Part shown: positions 23,032 to 43,458 of the stretch, one piece after another
Numbering within the stretch: position 1 is the first letter of the stretch
How the letters are laid out: each line of letters opens with the position of its first letter
Assembly: GCA_956465555.1 (NCBI GenBank)
Contig: OY101127.1
Location: forward strand, 1,302,001-1,366,000
Source of the DNA: Nitzschia sp. pyKryTriq1
Lineage: Eukaryota > Bacillariophyta > Bacillariophyceae > Bacillariales > Bacillariaceae
Direction: 5' to 3'
Length of the DNA stretch: 64,000 nt
Translations under genes and position numbers: made by a program
Notes under the pieces: model-generated
Database searches by the model: none
What the model was told of the DNA's origin: nothing
Seen by the model: the letters and a program-made list of their open reading frames with translations, nothing else

Positions 23032-24021
23032 TGTTACAACACGCTGTTCGATGATGGAAGTCCACCGCTGTGCCTCGTCTGATGATATAAGTGCTGGAAG
23101 GATGCTGAAAAAAATAAAAAGAAGATGAAGATTCTCACGATGCGTGCGATGATTATTCTTTTTTGTGAGGAGAGATGCAGAGGGATGAATTATTGTTTGA
23201 GAACACAACGGCAGATTTTGATCATGATATGGAATGCCTTTCTACATGTATGTATATAGACATGGAATGGTTACTACTTGCGAGATGGCAAGCCCGCCGG
23301 TCCTGCTATACAGTACTTGTACCCTCGCTATACTCGACGTCTCTGTCTCCCCCCAATTTTGTTCGAGCAAAAATTCGAAAACGGGTGAGAGGACAGACAT
23401 TTCTTTGCTCTCAAACGACGAAGACGACTCAGACCATTGCCTAGTAGACGACAAGTTTACCTTGGCTCAGACAGACAGAGAACAAGTAAGAAAGTATAAG
23501 TACCATAGCTAGCATAGCGAACATCATAAATAATTATTATACGAGTACTTCAATCACTTTCATTATCAACGCAGTAATAATAAAGCATGATGGAAGGATT
23601 AGTGTTAAATGTCAGAGAACGTCGTCGTGCTTGAACATAGAGAACGGGAGAAAGTCCATTTGAAGCGCTATGACGTTCATTGGCGACGTGAATGTCCATC
23701 CTACTGAGCTTTCACTTAAAAACGATACGAAAAGACGAATTTCATCTCTTTTCATACGCAACCATTCCCAAAGCAACAGGCGCCCGGGAGAACCTCTACT
23801 CTACTAGGCGGTTCTTCTGCTTCGACTCTGAAGAAAGTCGAAAGCTAGTTTTTGTTGCCGGCGTTGTCGAAGCAAGTAGCATTCCGTAAAAGTGCGATGC
23901 CGCTTCGAGGAAAAATATAGTGATGAATGTGCTCATTGCTTATATTATTCCCAAAGAAGGGGCAAAGGACACAAACATATCAACTATTTGGACAAACCGA
24001 CATCACCACCCTTCATATACC
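23032..24021. other. Intergenic, no gene seen
   Basis: Lies between the Ser-rich gene and the heat-shock-factor copy. It may hold a 5' exon of the Ser-rich gene near 23107-23200. No other feature is recognised. Confidence 0.4.
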
Positions 24022-24489
24022 ATGAAGTCCATCAACAATAAAAAGAGATCACCCGAAGAGCAGTTTCCCATCAAGTTGCATCGCATCTTGAACGAAGCCG
24101 AATCGCTCGGCTTTCAAGATTGCATCAATTGGATGCCCGACGGCGCTTCGTTCAAGATTTCCAACAAGGTCAAACTGGAGAAGGAAGTCATGCCCCGGTA
24201 CTTTACCAGCTGCCAGTTCAAGTCGTTCCAACGCTCTTTGAACATGTGGGGCTTTTCGGCGTCCAATAAAAAGTCCGATTCGGCCACGGGCGGTGGACGT
24301 CGGCACCATCCTTGCTTTGTCAAGGGACGACCCGAACTCTGCGAGCAAATGCATCGAGTACGAGTCCGACAACCCGGAGCAAGAAGGCACAAGAACAGTA
24401 AAAGCAAGGCTGCTGGTACTGCTAGTGCTGCTGCTGCTGCTGTAGATCGGCAAGCGTCTGCGCAAGCAATCCATTCAATAGAGCGCTAG
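24022..24489 (+). CDS. HSF-type DNA-binding domain protein, C-terminally truncated copy
   Basis: Frame of 155 residues from the ATG at 24022 (MKSINNKKRSPEEQ). It carries a complete HSF-type winged-helix domain at about 12-112: FPIKLHRILNEAESLGFQD, WMPDGASFKI, the recognition helix region FKSFQRSLNMWGF and the wing/end HHPCFVKGRPELCEQMHRV. HSFs bind nGAAn repeats and are greatly expanded in diatoms. The protein then runs into a basic stretch and an Ala run encoded by CTG-type triplets, and stops at IHSIER. The usual Gln/Ser-rich C-terminus is missing. A matching C-terminal reading lies on the opposite strand just beyond (24423-24670). The copy is nearly identical to the inverted copy at 25456-25737. 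Confidence 0.75.
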   Translation: MKSINNKKRSPEEQFPIKLHRILNEAESLGFQDCINWMPDGASFKISNKVKLEKEVMPRYFTSCQFKSFQRSLNMWGFSASNKKSDSATGGGRRHHPCFVKGRPELCEQMHRVRVRQPGARRHKNSKSKAAGTASAAAAAVDRQASAQAIHSIER

Positions 24490-24898: not shown

Positions 24899-25460
24899 CT
24901 GGATGAGCCTCGCTACCGGCAATCGCCTCCATCGCCACAATTGGACAACGCTACCGATGCCCGCCGAAGCCATCGATCGCGTCCACCACCTAGCTCGTCG
25001 TCTGCCAGCCGGCCTTGCTTTTGTGGACGGTCGCGGGAACCCAATTATCGATATCCTGCCCGCAGGAGTGATGGTGGATGACAACGAAAATGAAGATGAA
25101 AATGACGAACCTGACATCGAAATTGATAATGAAGCCGAAGCAGCCGGCGAAATCGGCGAAAACGACGAGGACGACGATGACTTTCACGATGCTGCCGAAG
25201 TCGCCGAGGTCCCAGGAGTGGACGCCGAAGTCCCAGAAATCAACGATAATGCTGCCGACGAAGGAGCCGAAATCATCCCAGGAGTGAATGACGAGGCTGC
25301 CGATGGAGAAGCTGAAATCCCAGGAGTGACTGAGAACGATATTGATGACGATGACGCCGAAATCCCAGGAGTGGACGACGAAGTCGATGCCGTCGATGTC
25401 CCAGGAGTGCGCCGTAGCAACCGCACCAGGAAGGCCCCCGAGAGACTGATCGAGGCGTGA
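24899..25460 (+). mobile_element. Copia-type retrotransposon polyprotein fragment
   Basis: An open frame of about 185 residues. It begins MSLATGNRLHRHNWTTLPMP, continues with AIDRVHHLARRLPAGLAFVD, then an acidic linker with PGV repeats, and ends RRSNRTRKAPERLIEA. This matches the segment between integrase and reverse transcriptase of diatom Copia polyproteins, where the basic RRSxRxRKxPxRL motif precedes the RT. No integrase, RT or LTR remains. The right edge abuts the HSF copy at 25460/25461, so the fragment was inserted into, or joined to, that gene. Confidence 0.7.
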
Positions 25461-25737
25461 CAAAGCAAGGATGGTGCCGACGTCCACCGCCCGTGGCCGA
25501 ATCGGACTTTTTATTGGACGCCGAAAAGCCCCACATGTTCAAAGAGCGTTGGAACGACTTGAACTGGCAGCTGGTAAAGTACCGGGGCATGACTTCCTTC
25601 TCCAGCTTCATCTTGTTGGAAATCTTGAACGAAGCGCCGTCGGGCATCCAAGTGATGCAATCTTGAAAGCCGAGCGATTCGGCTTCGTTCAAGATGCGAG
25701 GCAACTTGATGGGAAACTGCTCTTCGGGTGATGCCAT
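25456..25737 (-). pseudogene. HSF DNA-binding domain, second copy, broken after the domain
   Basis: The start MASPEEQFPIKLPRILNEAE is at the ATG at 25737. The domain is about 98% identical in DNA to the plus-strand copy (24050-24325) and inverted to it. The few differences include H to P and N to T. Identity stops at HHPCFV, where the frame enters antisense Copia sequence and becomes meaningless. Upstream, an out-of-frame ATG near 25759 followed by CCCACAG could be an exon junction. On its own it would give a DNA-binding domain without effector region, so it is probably non-functional or dominant-negative. Confidence 0.7.
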
Positions 25738-26861
25738 CTGTGGGATTAGATGATTTCATGGTAACGGTATAGGAAGAGTGGTGATGTAAAGGTGTATCGC
25801 GGATTCTGTCCCCAAAGTTTTGTTCTTTTTTCTTTATCGGGCGGGAAGAATGATCCTTTTCCTCGAGCGCGAAGCGTCGCACAGCGGGCACACTGCGCCG
25901 GAGAATTGAGAATGCGCAAGAAGAACAATAGCAAACATCATTAAATAATTGTTACGACTTTTCGCAAGTCATTCTCTCTCTCTCCTTGTATGGAATGTTA
26001 AGTGCACACAACAAAATGAAGAACCGCAGATAGAGGTGGTGCGTGCGACGAACCCGGAAGAATTCTTATGAATATTTTCGCGAAAAAGCTTTTGCGAACC
26101 CTCATATCGTTTATATGTGAAGAACAAGTAGGATGGACAACACTTAGGTAGTGATGAATCCAAGCGCTGTAGTGTCTTGTGGTCTGTCGAACAGTCCGCC
26201 GCCACCAGTCCTCTTTTGGTGGTATTATTTGTTTGTAGTTTGATACTATGTACCGGTATTTTCGACGTTCTATTATACGGCACTATAGCGATCGGTCATT
26301 CATTAATTTATTGATTATTCAAGTGAGAATTGGGAATGACGTCTTCCGCTCCGTGCGTCGTCGTCCACGACGCACCGAGGAATGACTGACTTGCTTCTTC
26401 CACCGAAGAATTTCTTTTTTGCCTGTCCGTCTCTACGAAAAATGTATGGATGTGGGTGGGTTTCGGCCGCAAATAAAAGGGGGAGGATGATTTTGGGATG
26501 TTGTTGTAGTGTAGTACAGTATGTAGTACCGGTAGCGTGGCGGGCGGGGATTGGCGAGGCCTTGCGCGCGCGCGCTCCCCACTCGCTCGCTCGCCCGATG
26601 ACGACGACTGACAAGAAGTACGAAAAAACCGTACCGATAGTGGATGCAGTTAGTATGCAAGGTATCAAGTCAGTTGCTGGGCATCAAGATGCGACATATG
26701 TTCTTCGTTTTGTTCTTTGTTGTTGGGCCAGATCGAGAGATGGACACTATACCGTATAACACAACAACATATCTATCACCTTTACCTTTTGACATCCTGC
26801 AATCAAAGGAATGAATGAATGAATGAATGAATGAATGAATGATTGAAAGCCAAAACTCATC
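25738..26861. other. Intergenic, no gene seen
   Basis: Divergent space between the minus HSF copy and the PDZ-like gene. It contains a GCGCGCGCGC run near 26566 and GCTCGCTCGC. ATGA repeats (about 26809-26842) lie just before the next start codon. Confidence 0.45.
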
Positions 26862-30890: not shown

Positions 30891-31016
30891 TACTCTACTA
30901 GTAGAAGGGAAAGGACGGCTGGCTGCTGGCTGGCATTGACGATAGACTATCCTTTGGCGGGTCATTCATTATACTAACTACTACTGTACTACTACTACTA
31001 CTAGACTCTCTACTAG

Positions 31017-31196
31017 TATATCGTAAAGCAGCGAAAAAGTGCACTGTCTAATTTAGTTGCTACCTTGACGGTTGAGAGAAATTAATCTCTTCCCCGCCGG
31101 AACGATACCATCTACGCCAGACAGTCCAATTGATTGACTCAATGGACTCTTTTCACCCTTTCGGGATCATCAGCGCTAATCTGCACATCTCAAGAG
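31017..31196 (+). repeat. 180-bp inverted repeat, left arm
   Basis: It begins TATATCGTAAAGCAGCGAAA and ends ATCTCAAGAG. It aligns over its full length with the reverse complement of 33529-33708 with only scattered substitutions. The two arms enclose 2.3 kb with a Penelope-like relic and the RXL-A gene. Flanks are CTA/TAG-rich, so a target duplication cannot be defined. Confidence 0.9.
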
Positions 31197-32171: not shown

Positions 32172-32232
32172 GAAATTTCTTTCGCGTCGCAGCACGTGAT
32201 CATCATATGCCTCATATCCGGCGAACGGATCT
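32172..32232 (+). promoter_or_regulatory. RXL promoter module, RXL-A copy
   Basis: It contains the core CGCGTCGCARCACGTGA (CACGTG at 32193-32198), preceded by a TTTCTTT tract. ATGCC and GGCGAACGGATC follow within 35 bp. The same elements in the same order and orientation lie upstream of RXL-C and RXL-D. It is about 330 bp upstream of the RXL-A ATG. A second CACGTG is at 32044-32049. Confidence 0.7.
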
Positions 32233-32529: not shown

Positions 32530-33216
32530 ATGAAGTCCACTGTTTTGACCTTCTTTCTCCTTTTGCTTGTCGTCCTTAACGCTGTTGTCGTTATCGCTGA
32601 TCAACAAGAAGAAGGAGCCGCTGATGCTGCTCTCCGCAAGCGTACCGTCTCGCGTACCCGCCGTGGTGCTGCTGCTGCTGCTGCGGCCGCCGGAACACGC
32701 CGTCGTGAGAGGAAATTGGAAGGTGATGATGTAAGTACTGCTGGTGTCGTTCTTCTTCTATTCCTTCTTCTTCTTCTTCTACTTCTCGTTATGCCTTTCC
32801 GGCTCGAGGACTTCCGCAGAGAAGGAGCAAACAATGAAATAATATTCTAACACATCCATAATGATGCTTTTTCGCCCCTACAGGACGACGACGACGATGA
32901 TGATGATGATGATGGACCCAAGGAGGACATTACCTGGTTTCTTTTTGGAAACGGAGCCGCTAGTAGCGGAAAGGGAAAGGGTAAAAGCGTGAGTACAACG
33001 ATGATGATGATGATGATGATGACGAGCATTGCCAGGATGATGATGACGATGATTATGATCAAGAAGGAAAACAACAGCAACTACTTTTGCAAATGAACGC
33101 ATGTTGTCGGTGTTCGCCCCACGACCACCAGCTTCTTCTTCTGACCTCTTTTTACTACATTGTTTGCTTTTCTTGTTGCTTCTTCTTGTTCTTCGTATTA
33201 GCGCAAGCGCCATTAG
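32530..33216 (+). CDS. RXL-A: small secreted acidic/basic protein (silaffin-like)
   Basis: Three exons joined in phase 0 (32530..32730, 32884..32988, 33202..33216) give 106 residues. The signal peptide is MKSTVLTFFLLLLVVLNAVV. A basic propeptide (KRTVSRTRRG, Ala run) ends in RRERKL, an RXL motif. The mature part starts EGDD, then a run of ten Asp, then GPKEDITWFLFGNGAASSGKGKGKS. The last exon encodes only RKRH and a stop, the shortened form of the Arg-Lys tail of its relatives. The last intron could hide another Asp-rich exon after a CCAG at about 33047. Secretion and processing at RXL are inferred. Silica association is a hypothesis based on composition. Confidence 0.7.
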
Positions 33217-33528
33217 ACGAGGACGAGGAGAAACGAGGATGATCATGGTGGTGACGGCGGCTGGGAGCTTCTGGCGCGGTGGAAGCAAAAGTTCTTGGTA
33301 CTACTAGTGCTACTGCCGCCAGATGATGATGATGATTGAATGATCATGATGGATATAATATGTTGTGGTTCTTGTTTCTTTGGTGGCATTATCATAGCCA
33401 CTTACTCGTACTAGTAGTAGCAGGACAGATAAAGAAAACACTCCTGGTGCGTGTGTGTCGAAGAATTATAAAGTGAAAGTTACTACTACTACGAGGAAAG
33501 CTGCAAGCATAGGACTAGGTTCCATCGT

Positions 33529-33708
33529 CTCTTGAGATGTGCAGATTAGCGCTGATGATCCCGCAAGGGTGACAAGAGTCCATTGAGTCAATCAATTGGA
33601 CTGTCTGGCGTGGATGGTATCGTTCCGGCGGGAGCGAGATTCATTGCTCTCAACCGTCAAGGTAGCAACTAAACTAGACAATGCACTTTTTCGCTGCTTT
33701 ACGATATA
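33529..33708 (-). repeat. 180-bp inverted repeat, right arm
   Basis: Reverse-complement partner of 31017-31196. It ends CGCTGCTTTACGATATA. Differences from the left arm are scattered single bases, mostly around the AGAGAAATTAATCTC versus AGAGCAATGAATCTC stretch. Confidence 0.9.
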
Positions 33709-33837
33709 CTACTACTACTAGTCTGCTACCCCCCCCTACAAAATCACAGGGGGTGTAGCTATCTACTCGGCGTAGCCGTGGATGTAATGCGCGAGACTTT
33801 TGGTTGAAAATCCCATCATGGGGGTCTATTTTTCGGA

Positions 33838-34335
33838 TTTCGTGCGTTCAAGTATGAAATTCATACGCCTGAGTTGGAAGACCTGGACCTGTCGTATTTA
33901 TTGCCGCACTGTGTGGATGTTCGCAACAAGGTGCTGTCCGCCGTGACATCCGAGTCTCACAAGTCTTCCTCACTTTTTTGTGTGTTCCCTCGGACGATTT
34001 CGATCGTTCTGCGCACGATTTGGGATAATCTCGTCGAGGACGTGCCCGACAACCCAAGCCTGGCCGATTTTGATGGCCGACTCCAAGATTTCATCGCAGC
34101 CCATGCCACTGCTGAAGATCGCCATGAACTCATCGCTCAGCTCCGCGCCGCACGCAAGCCACGGGAGATGCCGGTACAGACCTTTTATTATCGCTTGCAC
34201 GAGTTGAACGGCTACGTTATGTGGCTCCCAACTGCGTCCACCGCCTACAATGACCTTCTCCTCCATTACAGATTTCGTGGTGAAGTTTATGCTCCACCCA
34301 ACGGATCCCAAAGCACACACCCATCTGAATAATAT
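33838..34335 (+). mobile_element. Retrotransposon gag relic
   Basis: The frame reads FRAFKYEIHTPELEDLDLSY, then NKVLSAVTSESHKSSSLFCV, ADFDGRLQDFIAAHATAEDR and PVQTFYYRLHELNGYVMWLP. This is the gag-like domain of diatom LTR retrotransposons, where a WLPG motif normally continues. Here similarity stops after WLP and the frame runs out. No LTR or pol is found beside it. It begins 130 bp outside the right arm of the inverted repeat. Confidence 0.55.
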
Positions 34336-34636
34336 CTACTCGGATATTCTCCATGGGCCTGAACGTCTTTTTACCGATCCGATCGCCCAAGACGCCGTGC
34401 TCGGCGATGTGGACCTACTCGACACGGTTCGAAAAATCGTTGCAGAAGAACTCATCGCCCCTAATGCGACTGATACACCAAGTACCAGCTCTATCACCCC
34501 CCTAATTACGAACGCTGCGATATTCGTACAGCTCGGCGGAACCACGGTATACCGTAGCTTTACGGTGGGTTGGCGGATAGACACTAGCGCGGGTTCTCAT
34601 CAAAATACGAATGAAGGAATAGCGATGTTATGTTGA
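34250..34636 (+). pseudogene. Protein-like open frame after the gag relic, unrecognised
   Basis: A 128-residue frame (MTFSSITDFVVKFMLHPTDP, ERLFTDPIAQDAVLGDVDLL) has non-repetitive, natural-looking composition and overlaps the gag relic in another frame. It could be a fragment of a captured gene or of the same retroelement after a frameshift. I recognise no family. Confidence 0.25.
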
Positions 34637-34640
34637 TCAG

Positions 34641-35160
34641 AAGACATCAGCACACCAACTTTCAAAGATCCCTCTATTAGCATCATCATCGATCATCATC
34701 ATTCAAAAAAAAAAGACAGCATTCGCATGCAGCATGATGATGGTCGTATCAGTGCATCAGCACCAAATAAAATTGAGAACTGATGGCCCTCGAGCAGCAG
34801 TGTTCGTATACCATACCACATCAGGTAATATTATAGAGGGTTCGTTCCCATCATCTTTCAAATACATGATGCTGTCTTCTCATTTCTCATTTCTGATTTC
34901 TCAATATTCTCATATTCATCTGCTGATGATTTCTCGTTTTGCACTGCATTATACTACTGTCTTCTACGATCGTCTACTACGAAGGGTTTTGTATAGGACC
35001 ACCGCCATATCCACCAGTCAGTCTTACCACATTATGATCATGATGATTCTCATAAAAATAATGTTCAGCAGCAAGAAAGCAAAAAGGTAAAAGAGAAGCA
35101 AACAACAACAACAACAGCAACAACAACAAAAGCAGTCTCCTGCTCGACTACTCATAAGAT
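34641..35160. other. Upstream region of RXL-B
   Basis: An A-run at 34706-34715 and ACAACA repeats (about 35101-35130) precede the RXL-B start. The shared RXL promoter module with CACGTG was looked for here and not seen. Confidence 0.45.
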
Positions 35161-36093
35161 ATGAAGCTCGTTCACTCGAAAACTTTGTTGATAAGCATCG
35201 TTCTCCTCTCCTTGATTTCAGTTTGGAGCGTCGGTGCTACTACTACTAGTACTACTAAACAACAATTGATCCGCCATCATGGTCATGATCATCTTCAGCG
35301 GAACCTGAAGGGTTCTTGGCCTTGTTGGTGTTGCTACTGGAATAATTGCGTAAGTCGAATATAGAATGTGACTGTCGTCGGCGGCCGCGTATACGAAATT
35401 ATTCACCTTCTGCTCTTCTTTTTTCCTGCTTTGTTTTGTTTTTTGTTTTTTGGTTTTTTTGTTTATATTTGGCAGGGTGGAAATAAGAGTGGAAAAGGCA
35501 GGACAGGACACGATGCCGGTGGTGTAGAAGCTATTGTCTTTGGTGATCACAAAAAGGATGACCCCGGTGAAGACAATGGCGACGACAAAGATGACAAAGG
35601 AACAACCAAAAGCGTGAGTAATATTACTACGAATACGTGCAAGCATGTTTTATTTTGATTTGGAAGAACGTGCCAGCACGACCACTCCTCTTCTATGATT
35701 ATACTACTACTACTAACCATTTTGCTTTGTCCTCTTGCCTACTACTACTACTACTACTACTATTGTCATTATGATTCGAAATCTCGAAAAGGACGAAACC
35801 ACCGGTGAAGAAGACGATGGTGGAGATGATGATGATGATGACGTGAGTATCACTGCTACTACTACTACTACTACTGGTACTGAACTACGCCGTGGTGTGC
35901 AACAATCATGACGATTATTTATTTTCGGAACGTACTACTACCACTTCGTACCATTCTTCCTCCTCCTACCTTCTAACCATTTTCTTTTGCTTCTTTCTTC
36001 TTGCCCATACTCCTCCTCCTCTGCCTTGTTGACTACTACATGTCTACTACAAAGCGCAAGAACCGCCACATTCGCGGCCGCGCGTACTACTAG
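35161..36093 (+). CDS. RXL-B: small secreted protein, divergent member
   Basis: Four exons in phase 0 (35161..35349, 35476..35613, 35792..35842, 36055..36093) give 138 residues. The signal peptide is MKLVHSKTLLISIVLLSLIS. The propeptide ends HLQRNL, an RXL motif, followed directly by the aromatic/Cys cluster KGSWPCWCCYWNNC, which the other members lack. Exon 2 is Gly/Lys/Asp-rich (GGNKSGKGRTGHDAGG, GDDKDDKGTTKS). Exon 3 is acidic and ends in six Asp. Exon 4 encodes the basic tail RKNRHIRGRAYY. Donors of exons 2 and 3 are GTGAGT, as in its relatives. It is clearly the same architecture but has its own promoter and a metal- or disulphide-capable Cys patch. Confidence 0.7.
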
Positions 36094-36910
36094 TAGTTGA
36101 CCTCTACTAGCTACTACTAGTAGCTACTACTAGTAGCTGGTATTGGAGATCGATCATCGCCGCTACTAATTTATATATTGAAATCACAGAGAACAAGAAG
36201 AGCCAGTGATTGTTGTTTCGGATGCTGGATGCTGGCATGATAATCAAGCGACAGTGAAGAAGATGGCTCGCGTCGCATCCTCGCATTCATTCATTCATTC
36301 ATTCATTCATTCATCACACATTCGTATTACTACTCAAGGCAGTAGTGGTAGTAGTAGTAGTAATAGGACAATAAATATTTTCAGAGCAGTACATCCCTCT
36401 CTTGGCATTAGTAGTTCTTGTTCTGTGGCACCTACTACTATCATCCCCTTCATGAGTATGCACGCTCTACTCTATACTACGATTCCCCATCGATAGTCCT
36501 TGGTGGTTTTCAATTACATTTCCTTCCAGGTGGCACTTGCCTACGAGGGGTCCAGCCGGCTCCAGCCAGTAGTTATTACTACTACTACTAGTAGTAGAGC
36601 TAATATCGTGGTTGACTCATCCTTTATTAGTGTATTCTTAATATTCCCACTATACTTCTTCCCAGCTTTATCCACATACACCACTCCAATTAAACTCCCG
36701 GGTTCACGCCCAACTGCTCTCAGCCCGCGGGGAGTCTATGACCGCCAGGGTGAGTACGCGAACCTCAGAGAGCGCAGCCTAAACTAGCTAGCATATATTT
36801 ATTCGATTCGATATTCTTGATATTATTTTGATTGGATTACTACTACTTCTACTACTACTAGTAGTAACTAGTAGTAGTAGTAGTAGTAGTAGTAGTTTTA
36901 GTAGTAGTAG
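36094..36910. other. Intergenic, CTA/TAG-rich
   Basis: It contains TTCA repeats (about 36284-36312) and several ACTAGT-centred CTA/TAG palindromes (36093-36137, 36580-36600, 36840-36911). No gene is supported. Confidence 0.5.
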
Positions 36911-38500
36911 TTAGAGTGGAGGTTTGATTTTGACGGTACGCAACATGCGACGTCGTGTCGAATCATCCGACGCGACCGACATGTGCGAACGCATTCGTCT
37001 CATGGTCGAATCATCGTCATTCTCATGGTTATTGGTATCATTGGCAGAGCTCATGACACTTGCCACGGGCGACACGGGCACCTTGGATTTGGAACGTGGT
37101 TGATAGGAAATCTTGCGTCCACTACTACTGGCAGCACTGGCAGCAGCGGATTGTTTGGAAGATGCCGTAGATACTACGGATGATGAGGAAGCTGCGGATG
37201 CGGATGGTTTGGCCTTGCTGATCTTTCCACCAGCACCACCACCAGTACCAAGTTCATTCGTCTTGAGTAATCCTTTCGCAGGAGCATGAGCATGAGCAGC
37301 AGGAGGAGGACCCTTGTTGACAATATTATCAAAGGAATGATTGCGTCCGGGCAGTACCTTATGGGTCCCTCCTCCGCCTCCAGGAGAAGACATTTCCGAA
37401 TGAGCACGCGTAATTTTCTTTTTACTCGAAGACGAGGTGCGAGGCGTGGCAACGTCCGCACGAGAGACTCGCATGGCCGATGCAGCGTAAGGAGAATGAG
37501 ATACGGAAGAAGAAGAGGAGGATGTTCCTCGATGATGAATGCCCAGTAGTCGTAGACGATTCTTTTCGACACTTCGTACTCCCGATAGGTACGCATGGAC
37601 TTCTTTTTCATCGCTCAATCCCCGGGTATTGGCCAATTTATGACACGGTACGGAAACGGCCAAATATCGCGATCGAATAAATTCCCAACATTCATGTATA
37701 TCCGACGAGGCCTTCCATTGTTCCAATTGTGCCTGCCACACTATATCAATCGCCAATTGGACATGTCCCTCCTTGCGTTGTTCGCCTTCCGTCGTCCATG
37801 CCTCCAAGCCACGGGGACATTGGTTGGGAAAGAGCGGTTTGCGCCGATCCAATAATTCGGCCGTCAAGTCGCATTCATCCTCCATGGCACCATATTCATC
37901 GGCGACATACCACGTACATTCCTTTTCCAGAATCGTATACGTGTCCAAATTGGGAATCGTATGGACCCCGACCGTCTTTTTAAACGTAATTCCCTTTTTC
38001 TTGGCTGCTGCTGCTGCTGCTGCTGTTCCTTTACTGCTACGACTGCTGCTACTGCCGGGTTTTCGTTTGATACGGCCTGATGATGCGGAGCCTGGTTGTG
38101 GTTGTTGTGATGGTTGTTGTGATGGTTGTTGTGATGGTTCTTTGGAAGGTGAAGCAGAAGAAGTCAATTTGGTAGCATTCCCAGATCGAGACGGAGTTCT
38201 GGGAGACTTGTTGTTGTTGTTGTTGTTGTTGCTGCTGTTGCTGCTGGGTTTGGACGGGGATCGTTGACTGATGATGCTGGTGGTGGTGGAAGAAGCAGCC
38301 GAATGTCCGCTGGTATGCCGGAGAGGAGACTTGGCATGCGGCAACATCTGTTCTAGCTGCTGTTTCGTTTGTATTTTTTGTTCGTCCCCTTCATCATCGT
38401 CCGTCACGACAGTATCCACGTCATCCACGTCATCATCATCATCATCCACATCCACAGCATCCGTAATAATAGCAGTAGTAATAGTGTTAGTATCAGCCAT
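36911..38500 (-). CDS. Conserved diatom-type protein of unknown function
   Basis: A 529-residue frame starting MADTNTITTA at 38500. The N-terminal 165 residues are low-complexity (Asp, Ser, Asn and QQPS repeats). Residues about 169-320 form a compact conserved-looking block: KKGITFKKTVGVHTIPNL, ILEKECTWYVADEY, CPRGLEAWTTEGEQRK and WEFIRSRYLAVS. I recall similar blocks (an IP..x..YT..EK..xWY start and a CxRGLExxT motif) in many diatom predicted proteins without assigned function. The C-terminal third is Ser/Lys-rich and disordered, ending MLRTVKIKPPL. It lies between the two pairs of RXL genes, but nothing links it to them functionally. Confidence 0.7.
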   Translation of the reverse strand: MADTNTITTAIITDAVDVDDDDDDVDDVDTVVTDDDEGDEQKIQTKQQLEQMLPHAKSPLRHTSGHSAASSTTTSIISQRSPSKPSSNSSNNNNNNNKSPRTPSRSGNATKLTSSASPSKEPSQQPSQQPSQQPQPGSASSGRIKRKPGSSSSRSSKGTAAAAAAAKKKGITFKKTVGVHTIPNLDTYTILEKECTWYVADEYGAMEDECDLTAELLDRRKPLFPNQCPRGLEAWTTEGEQRKEGHVQLAIDIVWQAQLEQWKASSDIHECWEFIRSRYLAVSVPCHKLANTRGLSDEKEVHAYLSGVRSVEKNRLRLLGIHHRGTSSSSSSVSHSPYAASAMRVSRADVATPRTSSSSKKKITRAHSEMSSPGGGGGTHKVLPGRNHSFDNIVNKGPPPAAHAHAPAKGLLKTNELGTGGGAGGKISKAKPSASAASSSSVVSTASSKQSAAASAASSSGRKISYQPRSKSKVPVSPVASVMSSANDTNNHENDDDSTMRRMRSHMSVASDDSTRRRMLRTVKIKPPL

Positions 38501-40372
38501 GATGATGGGCGGCTGCTGCTGCTGCTGCTGCTGCTGTTGGTGGTGATGTTGGTGGTGGTGTTTTTATGATGTGAAACGATCAGTCTCGCGGCACTCTTTC
38601 CTCTCGTCCAATCGTCCAGACGACTCTTTCCGCACGTCTACTCTTTCCACTCCAGTCCCTCCTTGTTGTTTTGTGTATACTGTACTGTACTGTACTGTAC
38701 TGTATGTCTGCACAGATCAACGAGAGAGAGAGAGAGAGAGTGAAGCAGAGAGATGATATAGAGTATAGTCTACTCGAGTAGACTATAATATTCGTACCGC
38801 AGTGTATACAATTCAGCAAGTGCAATGTTGTTGTGTTTACGTGTGGTGGGGATGAGCGCGGACCGCCCGCGGCGGGCGAGCGGAAGGTTGCAAAAGCGCC
38901 TTTTTTTTAATTAAATTGCTTCGTCGCGTCGCGTCCGTCGGTCATCGCCGCCGCCGCCATGGTGGTCGGTACATAATACTTGTCCTCGTACCTGTGTACT
39001 TGTACTTGTACTCGTAGTGCGAGCGCTTTGTATGTGTTATTCTGTGGTCGTTTATTATTTCTACCCGCGCGGTGTGTCATGTATCTGTTTGGGTGCGTGC
39101 GCTTTATGATATTATAATACGGTACTGTAGTGGATAATCCACTGAAAACGGAAGGCGGATGGATCGACGGACCGGTCATTAGTATCGACATCTCCAATCT
39201 ACGTACATAATACTCGGACGTAATCAAATCGAAAATAATAAGCCCAAAATCTGTAATAATGACCATGACCATGCTAGCTAGTAGTCTATTCATCATAACT
39301 ATACATTCGTACGCAGGTACAGACGTCAGCATCATGTACATCTATAAAGAACCGTTTCGACCATCACCATCACCATCACCACCACCACACCAACACCAGA
39401 AGATTGTATCTCCGAATCGCTAGCTAGTAAGGACTGCTGCTACTCTAGTAGCAACACTGCTGATTAAGGAGACTACTACTAGTAGAACAAAGAGCCAGGA
39501 GCCGCTGCTGCTTACGCTTCCAATGAACTTATTATTGAGTGGTGAGTAGTGTACTCCTTTGTGGACGACGACGACGACGACGACAATGACGCGGTACGAT
39601 TTTGAGCATGAGCTCTTTTTTGGGGGGTTTTCAGATTATCATCATGCCTCCTGCTCAAAAAGAAAGTAGTACGCTACTAGCTACTACTAGCACCACCCAC
39701 CACCAGCTGCAACAAAAATGTCCAAGAAGAACTGAAGCAGACGGCCGACCGGCCGGACAATGATGGAAAAAAACGCTCTGCTGCTGGCCATCATCATCAT
39801 CATCATCATTATCATCATCATGGTAGAGCAAGAGGGAAATAAAAGCGATGACAATGCTGTTGACCTACTACTACCTAATCTTTCTTTTCTGGACCAATAT
39901 ACTATTACAACATGATCATGATCATGATGATGAGCCCAATGATACTTGTTGCGATCATGTTGTGTCGTGCGAATAAAGGACCGAGCTAGCGAGCTAGCTA
40001 GCTAGTAGTAGTAGTATTGGCGACTTGAGATTAGAGTCTACTAGCTACTACTACTTGTAGTACAACAAGAAGCTAAAGGGACAAATATTTATTAGATTTC
40101 AAACGAAGAATAAGGAGCTTTGTTCGTTTATTCTCTTATGGAATAACCATAGATCTCGCTATTAGTATTAGTACTATCTCATCATGATGATGTTCTTGTA
40201 ATCTAATCCTACTGTTTGTTGTCGCGTCCTCATCCACTTTTGGTAGACTAGCTCGTGGTGCAAAGGCATGTGCACTCACTGACCGTTCAGCAGATAGTCG
40301 TAGTAAATCGCTTTATATTCCTCTCTCGATCTCTCCTCTTGACAACAACAACAACAACAACAACATCTCCTT
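38501..40372. other. Intergenic, possible decayed fragment
   Basis: Long region without a supported gene. It has GAGA repeats near 38722-38740. A GAC run at about 39564-39588 (six GAC then AATGAC) resembles the Asp-coding exon of RXL genes but lacks a signal-peptide exon or frame around it. The TAA-proximal end next to 40373 shows similarity to the 3' flank of RXL-D. Confidence 0.4.
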
Positions 40373-41045
40373 TTAGACGCGAGTGTGGCGGCGACCAGCA
40401 CCACCACCAGCACCACCATGGGTAAGAGTACGGCGATTCTTCTTCTTGCGCTAGTAGTAGTAGCAGTAGTAGTAACAGTAGTCGAAGTAGTAAAAGAAGG
40501 ACAATGGCAAAGTTAGTAGAAGCAAGAACATCAAGCTGAGAACGTCCTTTGCATGCAAGTAATACTCACGCTGTCTCCTTTACCACTCCCCTTTCCCGAG
40601 CCATGGAGATTAAAGTAAAAATATTTAATTGTGCCGTCTCCATCATGCGAGGAAGAAGAAGAAGATGAATCATCATCATCATCGTCGTCGTCGTCATCAT
40701 CGTCCTGTAACAAACAGAAGGAAATCATTTGTTTCGTTAGAACCTTGAACATGCTTCTTGCTGGAGGAACCAAGAAGAAGCGCAGCAGCGACTTCTCAAA
40801 TCGCAACAAGAACATGATGATCAAGAACTGCGTATTCTTGTTAGTAGTATACGTACATCATCTCCACCTTTTCCGTACAATGCCCTCTTCTCCTGCATTT
40901 CTGGAAGAGCACTGGTGCGACGACGCGATACTGAGCGCTGGCGGAGGAGGGTTACATCCTTCTCATCGACTTCTTGAGCAGCAATGACAACGCTCAAAAC
41001 GACGAGCAAAACAACGAGGAAAAAGGTCAACACAGTGGGCTTCAT
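40373..41045 (-). CDS. RXL-C: small secreted acidic/basic protein
   Basis: Three phase-0 exons (41045..40857, 40704..40570, 40450..40373) give 133 residues. The signal peptide MKPTVLTFFLVVLLVVLSVV is followed by AQEVDEKDVTLLRQRSVSRR, nearly the same as in RXL-D. The RXL-type motif is EKRAL, just before YGKGGDD. Exon 2 has 12 Asp, 7 Ser, then HDGDGTIKYFYFNLHGSGKG and SGKGDS. Exon 3 is basic and Gly-rich (RKKKNRRTLTHGGAGGG). Donors are GTACGT and GTGAGT. The acid-to-serine run could be phosphorylated, as in acidic biosilica proteins, but this is inference. Promoter and flanks match RXL-D, so the two arose by tandem duplication. Confidence 0.72.
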
Positions 41046-41259
41046 CTTTTCAATGGTTTCTTGTCCTTGTATACTAGTCTGCTGGATTTTTATGACAATA
41101 CAGAGCTGTCAAAACGTGCTCGCATCTATCACTGCAATACAGAGAATTCGCATCGGATCTACTACTTGTACTAGGACTGTACTACTACCGTATTATTATT
41201 CGACGACGACGCGTCCGTGCTGGAAAGATGTGAGCGACGCAGCGCTAGCTCGTGCCAAT

Positions 41260-41328
41260 GATGCGTTCGCCACGTGTGCGAACGTTTGGGGCATATAAGG
41301 TTCACGTGTTGCGACGCGCGAAGGAAAT
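41260..41328 (-). promoter_or_regulatory. RXL promoter module, RXL-C copy
   Basis: On the minus strand the order is a TTTCC tract, CGCGTCGCAACACGTGA, TATATGCCCC, then an imperfect dyad GTTCGCACACGTGGCGAAC. There are two CACGTG boxes (41303-41308 and 41271-41276). It is about 215-285 bp upstream of the start codon. Confidence 0.7.
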
Positions 41329-42261
41329 TTTCTGACGGTCGGAAAGGCAACAATGGTTGGCTCACTCGCTCGGCAAGCCAAATCGCACAAAAAGCATAGC
41401 GAGTTGTTGCGTGCTGTTTTCCATAGTCAAGAACATTCTTCCATTCCTCGACACGTGTGTTCCTGACATTGTTTGATTGACAATAACGGTACTTGTAACT
41501 GGTAAATACCCATCATGTTCGAGTTCTGATAACAAGAATAGCGTCCCCATCCATGGATGCATCGTATCTTCTACGACTCTGGTAGCTACGAGTTCTCTCT
41601 CTACGAGTAGACGAGTACCGTACCGGTAGCTACTACTAGCTAGTAGAGAGTAGAGAAGAGTAGACGATCAACTTACCGCGTGTGACCTACATCAGTACGA
41701 CTACGAACCAGTACCTGGTACTGTTCTACCGTACTCGTAGTACTACTTGTACTTGCTGGTACTAGCAGTACTATCGTCACTTCGGCGGAGAAGTGCGTAC
41801 GCGTAGTCCACTTACACAGGATTTCAATCGATCCAAGAAATGTGAATCGATAGCCGCCCAGCTCGGAATGGTTCTCCTACGGACGATAGAAACTTTTACC
41901 ACACCGTTTCCATGCAACAACAAAAAGGCCAACAATGATGATGCTGACGATGTGTAAAACGAATAGACAGACGAGCTATCAACCACGTGGGAAGGGAGTC
42001 TAACGAGCAGAAGGGAGGACACACATTTGAGTTGAACGAACAAATACTAGATCTCGCTATCAAATGTTGTATTCTAATCCTACTGTTGTGGCCTCCTCCT
42101 CATCCATTCGCTCTATGATTTGTACGGTCCAGAGGTTAGAAGGTTTGAGGACGAGAAATCTGCCATTAGCGATCAAACATACTGGCTCGTGCAATGGCAT
42201 GCACCAGCCAGACAAATCGCTTCATATTCCCCCCTCTTTTTCTTGATAACATCTCGTCCTT

Positions 42262-43137
42262 TTAGACGTGACCGTGGCTGGGACCACCACGGGCAAGAGT
42301 ACGACGATTTTTCTTGCGCTAGTAGTAGTAGAACGTACAAAGAATGAAAAGTTAGAAGGAAGCTGAGCCGAGGACGTTCACATGATGAAGAGGCCTCATG
42401 GATAGAAGTAGTACTCACGCTATTGCCCTTTCCGCCCTTGCCCTTTCCGCTATCGTCGTCGTCATCGTCGTCGCCGCCTTTGCCTTTTCCGCCTTTGCCC
42501 TTTCCGCTATCGTCGTCGTCGTCGTCGCCGCCGCCTTTGCCTTTTCCGCCTTTGCCCTTTCCGCTATCGTCGTCGTCGTCGTCGCCGCCCTTGCCCTTTC
42601 CGCCCTTGCCTTTTCCGCCTTTGCCCTTTCCGCTATCGTCGTCGTCATCGTCGTCACCACCCTTGCCCTTTCCGCCCTTGCCCTTTCCGCCTTTGCCCTT
42701 TCCACTATCGTCGTCGTCATCGTCGTCACCACCCTTGCCCTTTCCGCCCTTGCCCTTTCCGCCTTTGCCCTTTCCACTATCGTCGTCGTCATCGTCGTCG
42801 CCGCCTTTGCCCTTGCCGCCTTTGCCTTTGCCACCCTTGCCCTTGCCGCTATCGTCGTCGTCATCGTCGTCCTAAAACAAAGAAGAAATTTTTGTTAGAG
42901 TATTGTTGAAGAATGTCTTCCTTGTGCACAAAGCCGCAGCAGCATCATACTTACACCACCTTTTCCACCACCTTTTCCGCTCAATTTCCTCTTGCCTAGC
43001 GTTTCTGGTAGAGCACGCGAAACAGATCGCTGACGGAGGAGAGATCCATCCTTCTCATCGACTTCTTGAGCATTAACAACGCTCAAAACGACGAGCACAA
43101 CAACGAGGAAAAAAGTCAACACAGTGGGCTTGTTCAT
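42262..43137 (-). CDS. RXL-D: secreted Asp/Gly-Lys repeat protein (silaffin-like)
   Basis: Three phase-0 exons (43137..42955, 42871..42419, 42318..42262) give 230 residues. The signal peptide MNKPTVLTFFLVVVLVVLSV is followed by QEVDEKDGSLLRQRSVSR and the RXL site GKRKL, just before SGKGGGKGG. Exon 2 (151 residues) is seven tandem units of six or seven Asp, one Ser, and two or three GKGKG blocks. It totals 47 Asp and 35 Lys by my reading and includes the lysine spacing KGGK. Exon 3 is RKKNRRTLARGGPSHGHV. Such polyampholytes can coacervate. Silaffins and related wall proteins use KXXK lysines and RXL processing, so biosilica association is the leading hypothesis. Antisense frames here are shadows of the repeat. 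Confidence 0.78.
42419..42871 (-). repeat. Coding repeat of seven Asp-Ser-(GKGKG) units
   Basis: Units 1-4 (N to C) are 24 residues each: seven Asp, Ser, and GKGKGGKGKGGKGKGG. Units 5-7 are 19, 18 and 18 residues, with shorter Asp runs in units 5 and 6 and a degraded end GKGNS in unit 7. Synonymous differences between units are few, suggesting recent expansion or homogenisation. Confidence 0.92.
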
Positions 43138-43390: not shown

Positions 43391-43458
43391 GATGCGTTCG
43401 CCACGTTTGCGAACGTCCGGGGCTTATACAGTTCACGTGTTGCGACGCGAAAGGAAAT
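43391..43458 (-). promoter_or_regulatory. RXL promoter module, RXL-D copy
   Basis: Same order as the RXL-C copy: TTTCC tract, CGCGTCGCAACACGTGA (CACGTG at 43434-43439), TATAAGCCCC, then the dyad GTTCGCAAACGTGGCGAAC, whose central box is altered to AACGTG. It is about 255-320 bp upstream of the start codon. Confidence 0.7.

Follow-up and report, generated by a model that had tools for sequence, protein, structure and literature searches.

A family of three diatom genes predicted to encode secreted, RXL-processed Asp/Gly-Lys block polyampholytes, candidates for the silica wall matrix

We asked whether four small genes clustered in Nitzschia sp. pyKryTriq1, RXL-A, RXL-B, RXL-C and RXL-D (A to D hereafter), are members of one family, and whether their products are likely to belong to the silica wall. 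The genes lie in a window of 64,000 nucleotides (C13:1302001-1366000) in a genome of 40.65 Mb and 20 contigs, which is recognizable as that of a diatom because it holds eight loci of the silicon-transporter family PF03842, each above the family cut-off, together with a silicanin-1-like gene. An earlier note on this DNA had described A to D as a four-member cluster of secreted, silaffin-like candidates. Judged by their sequences, A, C and D are one family of three with a private upstream element. We put at about 0.5 the probability that the products of these three are secreted, undergo RXL processing and serve as block polyampholytes in the silica wall matrix.

The spliced models proposed for A to D could all be rebuilt (Table 1), with nine of nine introns running from GT to AG and lying in phase 0. 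The RXL tripeptides read as had been claimed (RKL in A, RNL in B, RAL in C and RKL in D), and the last exon opens with Arg-Lys in every model. The four signal peptides of the earlier note found support from hydropathy only, the N-terminal core being strongly hydrophobic in all four (11-residue maxima of 3.2-3.7), while the Gly/Lys-rich middle said to be shared is strong in D and not in A, B or C. Exon 2 opens with an Asp run in A, C and D. Specifically, A has a hydrophobic N-terminus, RKL at residues 61-63, Asp12, then WFLFGNG..SGKGKGKS and a last exon RKRH; C has RAL at 54-56, Asp14-Ser7, IKYFYFNLHGSGKGSGKGDS and a last exon beginning RKKKNRRTL; and D has RKL at 50-52, seven units of Asp6-7/SGKGKGGKGKGG and a last exon beginning RKKNRRTL. 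RXL tripeptides stand at 41 (RAL), 50 and 218 in D, at 54 and 115 in C, and at 61 only in A; C and D thus carry a second RXL, RTL, in the last exon, and A does not. From residue 23 to the RXL the propeptides have net charges of +6 (A), +2 (C) and +2 (D); after the RXL the chains have net charges of -8 (A), -9 (B), -4 (C) and -4 (D). The mature chains range from acidic to nearly neutral and are polyampholytes rather than polycations. Mature D consists of 26% Asp, 22% Lys and 39% Gly, and contains neither Trp nor Tyr.

Table 1. Positions in the window of the gene models, the upstream element and the SiMat7-like gene.
Feature	Position	Strand	Remarks
RXL-A	exons 32530-32730, 32884-32988, 33202-33216	+	106 aa, span 32530..33216
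RXL-B	exons 35161-35349, 35476-35613, 35792-35842, 36055-36093	+	138 aa, span 35161..36093; look-alike neighbour
RXL-C	exons 41045-40857, 40704-40570, 40450-40373	-	133 aa, span 40373..41045
RXL-D	exons 43137-42955, 42871-42419, 42318-42262	-	230 aa, span 42262..43137
17-bp upstream element CGCGTCGCARCACGTGA of A	32183..32199	+	330 bp before ATG
17-bp upstream element CGCGTCGCARCACGTGA of C	41302..41318	-	256 bp before ATG
17-bp upstream element CGCGTCGCARCACGTGA of D	43433..43449	-	295 bp before ATG
SiMat7-like gene	15715-13928, 13800-12958	-	17 kb from the A/C/D cluster

The homology of A, C and D was apparent both in exon 1 and in the DNA before it. A genome search with the exon-1 protein of C (E ≤ 10) returned three matches only, C itself (E 2.7e-34), D (1.1e-16) and A (1.5e-5), with identities to C of 84% for D and 49% for A; genome searches here and below score the best candidates, and 'only' means only among the matches listed. 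The intron positions are common to the three genes. Local alignment of the 700 bp upstream gave scores of 187 (C-D), 51 (A-C) and 51 (A-D), as compared with maxima of 28, 32 and 33 in 200 mononucleotide shuffles. The element CGCGTCGCARCACGTGA, sought with at most one mismatch, occurred at three sites in the genome, all three before A, C and D, and the reversed pattern used as a control at none; it was not found before the metalloprotease genes described below. C and D are tandem duplicates, identical at 87% of aligned bases in exon 1, 84% in exon 3 and 81-82% in the introns.

B, the proposed fourth member, was rejected, since its exon 1 and upstream region match neither A, C nor D; the earlier four-member cluster thus stands for the other three. 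In the genome, B exon 1 matched itself and one stop-ridden stretch at E 2.84, and its upstream region scored 23-25 against those of A, C and D, not above its own shuffles (maxima 27-29). The last acceptor region of B scored 39 against C (maximum of 300 shuffles 32), 40 against A (shuffle maximum 28) and 28 against D, a value reached by 4 of 300 shuffles. We did not take these matches as homology, because the match with C consists of a CTA repeat and AGCGCAAGAA and that with A of a GAT run.

Published lysine criteria set D apart. According to PMC5501833, a screen for silaffin-like proteins combined a signal peptide with KXXK motifs (X = S or G) 1-6 residues apart; for silica targeting the same paper cites the importance of pentalysine clusters (five non-consecutive Lys within 12-14 residues), and PMC5501833 and PMC9650480 tie the pentalysine clusters of silaffins to silica. 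The D model contains 11 KXXK motifs, four pairs of which are 1-6 residues apart, as well as pentalysine clusters (4 strict, 24 overlapping 14-mers). We surveyed all stop-to-stop frames of at least 60 aa in 139,731 bases (the window and eight C13 loci): 6 of 1036 had either lysine feature, and clustered KXXK pairs were confined to D's frame. Among A to D, predicted D is the only protein to fit both silaffin-like lysine criteria, and A, B and C fit neither, so that 'silaffin-like', applied to the whole cluster in the earlier note, suits D alone.

The D repeat also led to a second locus. With D as query (E ≤ 0.001), the genome yielded, besides D and C exon 1, one place only, C14:748 kb (E 2.5e-8), where a frame has a hydrophobic start, VERML, three SGKGKGGKGKGG units and the run SKSSKSTKSSKKGSKKGKGKGG. 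The next frame has a domain of luminal type, a single hydrophobic stretch and a tail that is acidic; in our reading the two would join into one gene for a membrane protein resembling the silicalemma-associated proteins (SAPs). A search with the second frame found three tandem relatives at C14:743-749 kb (L043, L060), all with a GK- or SK-rich stretch before the hydrophobic stretch and with a long acidic tail; two of the three show an RXL following the N-terminal stretch (VERML, YRTLEHH). Judged by their hydrophobic stretches and RXL, these predicted proteins fit in outline the SAPs of PMC5647440, which have a signal peptide, RXL, a transmembrane segment and a conserved cytosolic domain with a 28-residue signature.

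We propose that the predicted signal peptides of A, C and D would direct entry into the endoplasmic reticulum, and that an RXL endoprotease may remove the basic propeptide. In the remaining chain an Asp block, a GK block and a basic tail would make up a disordered block polyampholyte that joins the silica-forming organic matrix. Long-chain polyamines and further cationic molecules of the matrix could attach to its Asp blocks, and its spaced lysines could be modified or else hold silica. With its seven alternating blocks, D might act as a multivalent cross-linker. Secretion, cleavage, location, binding and function are all inferred. The silica-wall reading draws support from the diatom genome with its eight PF03842 loci, from the lysine pattern of D, from the recurrence of its GK repeat in the SAP-like gene, from the unity of A, C and D as a family with one private upstream element, and from the mostly synonymous variation of the D repeats (see below). 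Further support comes from the literature, in which AC3362 of Amphora is a biosilica-associated wall protein with KG repeats (PMC4220933), and acidic peptides, the silacidins, aid polyamine-driven silica precipitation (PMC4557024).

Comparison with known systems, as far as the cited papers describe them, showed partial likeness in each case. D resembles the silaffin-like KXXK proteins of Thalassiosira pseudonana (PMC5501833) in its N-terminal signal-like segment, clustered K[S/G][S/G]K, pentalysine clusters and RXL, but its motif is KGGK with Asp runs between, and A and C lack the motif; moreover, the known proteins come from another species, and their definition includes silicon-responsive expression. 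Likewise, D and the lysine-enriched regions of cingulins (PMC9650480) both have spaced lysines in a Ser/Gly background, but the cingulin regions are of KSGK/KSSK type while D has KGKGGK with Asp6-7 blocks and a mature part free of Trp and Tyr. The silacidins (PMC4557024) are, like these products as predicted, secreted acidic repetitive precursors, and C has Asp14-Ser7; however, silacidin-type precursors have RXL at the repeat ends, whereas D has none of its RXL tripeptides (41, 50, 218) between repeats, so that no acidic repeats would be released there, and its Lys is as rich as its acid. AC3362 of Amphora coffeaeformis (PMC4220933) shares KG dipeptide repeats and is a secreted cell-wall protein, but is Tyr- and Pro-rich with no Asp blocks described, unlike A, C and D. 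SAPs (PMC5647440) have a signal peptide, as predicted for A, C and D, and RXL, and the SAP-like gene on C14 has D's GKGKGGKGKGG; in contrast to SAPs, with their single transmembrane segment and cytosolic domain, A, C and D have neither, there being no hydrophobic stretch in their translated C-terminal parts.

The end of A was found again on a metalloprotease gene. The end of A's exon 2, its intron 2, exon 3 and part of the 3′ flank match C13:1091.8-1092.3 kb at 73% over 480 bp (E 1.5e-85); the gene there (L020, C13:1091.8-1094 kb) is an M43 metalloprotease (44.3 bits, cut-off 23) with a PT-repeat stalk. Identities over aligned bases were 87% in the tail, 95% in the intron, 100% in exon 3 and 85% in the 3′ flank, leaving out 6, 50, 0 and 54 gap columns respectively. 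Homology of the metalloprotease gene with its closest paralogue (81%) enters the PT stalk and ends at most 15 bp from the start of the homology with A. In three other M43 paralogues the C-terminal end is hydrophobic (Kyte-Doolittle 1.7-2.2 over a stretch of 15 residues that lies 3-5 residues from the end). Spliced as in A, the metalloprotease would end in KGKSRKRH; if instead its last intron is kept, the reading frame runs on uninterrupted to a hydrophobic end (2.5). Splicing of this gene could toggle between an anchor-like and a basic tail, its true C-terminus depending on intron retention. A search for GKGK followed by a splice donor returned two genes only, A and the metalloprotease; the tail of the latter has neither clustered KXXK nor pentalysine clusters. 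A related tail is present in C but absent from the three M43 paralogues, which suggests that the tail was in the A/C/D family before it was in the metalloprotease.

A dispersed repeat lies just 3′ of A (33492-33730), with an inverted copy at 31011-31196, and may have aided movement of the tail. It accounts for 26 of the 44 matches in the genome search that found the tail match, and a 61-bp piece of it recurs on the 3′ side of the metalloprotease gene that carries A's tail. More speculatively, and in our view quite unlikely, the end SGKG..GK.S followed by RK (a GK stretch, a phase-0 intron and a basic last exon) might be a portable wall-retention module that moved onto the M43 metalloprotease, replacing the hydrophobic anchor-like end of the three paralogues; D's Asp-GK unit, multiplied sevenfold, would then have given a new matrix polymer joining silacidin-like acid and silaffin-like lysine blocks in one chain.

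Several observations weigh against a role in the silica wall. A, B and C hold 0, 1 and 0 KXXK motifs, without pairs, and none of the three has a pentalysine cluster. Mature A to D are net negative, as opposed to the polycationic silaffin peptides. At most one mismatch allowed, CGCGTCGCARCACGTGA was found in the genome before no silicanin, SAP-like or silicon-transporter locus, which lends no support to co-regulation with known silica genes. In 20,000 trials, RXL arose by chance in 37% (A), 22% (B), 49% (C) and 43% (D) of shuffled propeptides; the tripeptide alone therefore says little. RXL sites had previously been seen only in biosilica-associated proteins, according to PMC5647440, but RKL stands between propeptide and protease domain in all four M43 genes, so RXL is not confined to silica proteins, and on both grounds we rejected it as proof of silica association. 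Finally, the first exons of C and D (58 codons) differ by 11 replacement and 8 synonymous changes (dN 0.12, dS 0.29, for replacement and synonymous rates), and their introns are nearly as similar as the exons; comparing the compartments did not separate constraint on the two. The plausible silica-wall role of the earlier note thus keeps the diatom genome, D's lysines, the repeat in the SAP-like gene and a SiMat7-like gene 17 kb off in its favour, and has the lysine-poor A and C, the net-negative chains and the M43 proteases against it.

The strongest alternative, which we judge unlikely, is that A, C and D are secreted polyampholytes of other extracellular material (mucilage, adhesive or a chitin-associated coat), their Asp blocks cross-linked by Ca2+, with no part in silica formation. 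It would suit the dominance of Asp-rich blocks in A and C, both outside the silica-lysine criteria, the sharing of A's tail with an M43 metalloprotease, an enzyme not known as a silica protein, and the RXL of that protease family. It does not account for the silaffin-like lysine pattern of D or the return of its repeat in a SAP-like gene, and AC3362, a KG-repeat protein that was initially an adhesion candidate, turned out to be a cell-wall protein in the account of PMC4220933.

A further alternative, which we regard as improbable, is that, in a genome rich in microsatellites, most of the cluster is low-complexity sequence, with Asp runs that are GAY repeats, RXL a matter of chance, and some or all models untranslated or decaying copies. 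Trinucleotide runs are indeed common in the window, RXL appears in 22-49% of shuffled propeptides, and the C-D introns are conserved almost like exons. Yet among the seven repeat units of D, synonymous variation affects 12 of 24 codon columns and replacement affects 3, and pairwise the units show 89 synonymous vs 16 replacement differences, where 20% synonymous would be expected at random (33% for transitions only); a column test gave P 2.9e-4 with one-third expected, treating columns as independent. In exons 1 and 3, the gaps in the alignment of C with D have lengths divisible by three, and the common upstream element and the regular splice sites of all nine introns likewise speak against decay. 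Given the mostly synonymous variation, non-coding Asp runs are not favoured, and we hold with moderate confidence, from these patterns, that the models are coding.

We consider it very improbable that the middle block is no more than a spacer and that the excised ends (the propeptide or, in C and D, what follows RTL in the last exon) are the active products, secreted peptides with a cationic or signalling role, for although the propeptides are net positive and RTL is present in C and D, A has no second RXL and the synonymous variation in D's expanded repeat suggests that the repeat itself is kept.

None of A to D had a Pfam match above the curated cut-off; below it, A matched DUF5870 (E 2.9e-4, 20.4 bits, cut-off 25) and C matched Sporozoite_P67 (E 0.0046, 15.6 bits, cut-off 28.9), both over low-complexity stretches. 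D had no match in the PDB at E ≤ 0.1, and residues 1-99 of D gave 600 pattern matches in IMG/VR, none of them a relative. In the literature searched, in which sequences in figures and supplements are not searchable, we found no description of a diatom protein with Asp/GK repeats, and the query 'GKGKGG' with 'diatom' returned no papers.

Elsewhere in the window, the SiMat7-like gene encodes an N-terminal signal-like segment, KASRKL, an NQ-rich stretch, 24 luminal Cys, a C-terminal hydrophobic stretch and a long basic tail. Its protein matched (BLASTP E 3e-12) that of a close silicanin-1-like gene (L057, C1:2022-2025 kb), of 430 aa with 18 luminal Cys and GGQKFAL before the transmembrane segment, features given for silicanin in PMC5525289. 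In the alignment each of the 18 Cys of the latter has a Cys counterpart in the window protein. The heptapeptide GGQKFAL is absent from the window protein. Because the junction before its transmembrane segment reads MPAGQAVLL instead, we assign the predicted protein to the SiMat7/silicanin family and not to silicanin-1. The nearness of this gene to the RXL genes is suggestive only. Of the eight silicon-transporter loci, the one that diverges most (C13:1242726-1244183, plus strand; 451.5 bits vs 873-885 bits for the other seven) lies ∼58 kb before the window on the same contig. By eye, and with no search made, frames between A and B (33808-34636, plus strand) resemble a retroelement gag fragment, and two near-identical facing frames (23890-24489, plus; 25273-25755, minus) resemble a heat-shock-factor DNA-binding domain. 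Searches of the window for Rfam families and tRNAs found none.

Homology rarely finds silica-forming proteins, which change fast. A family in which D lies above the silaffin-like threshold and its sisters A and C below it would show such proteins arising as a short Asp-GK unit is expanded into repeats. Whether polyanion and polycation silica chemistries work within one molecule could be tested on a natural chain in which acid blocks alternate with pentalysine blocks, and the tail swap with the protease would offer a simple test of whether a short tail suffices for wall retention.

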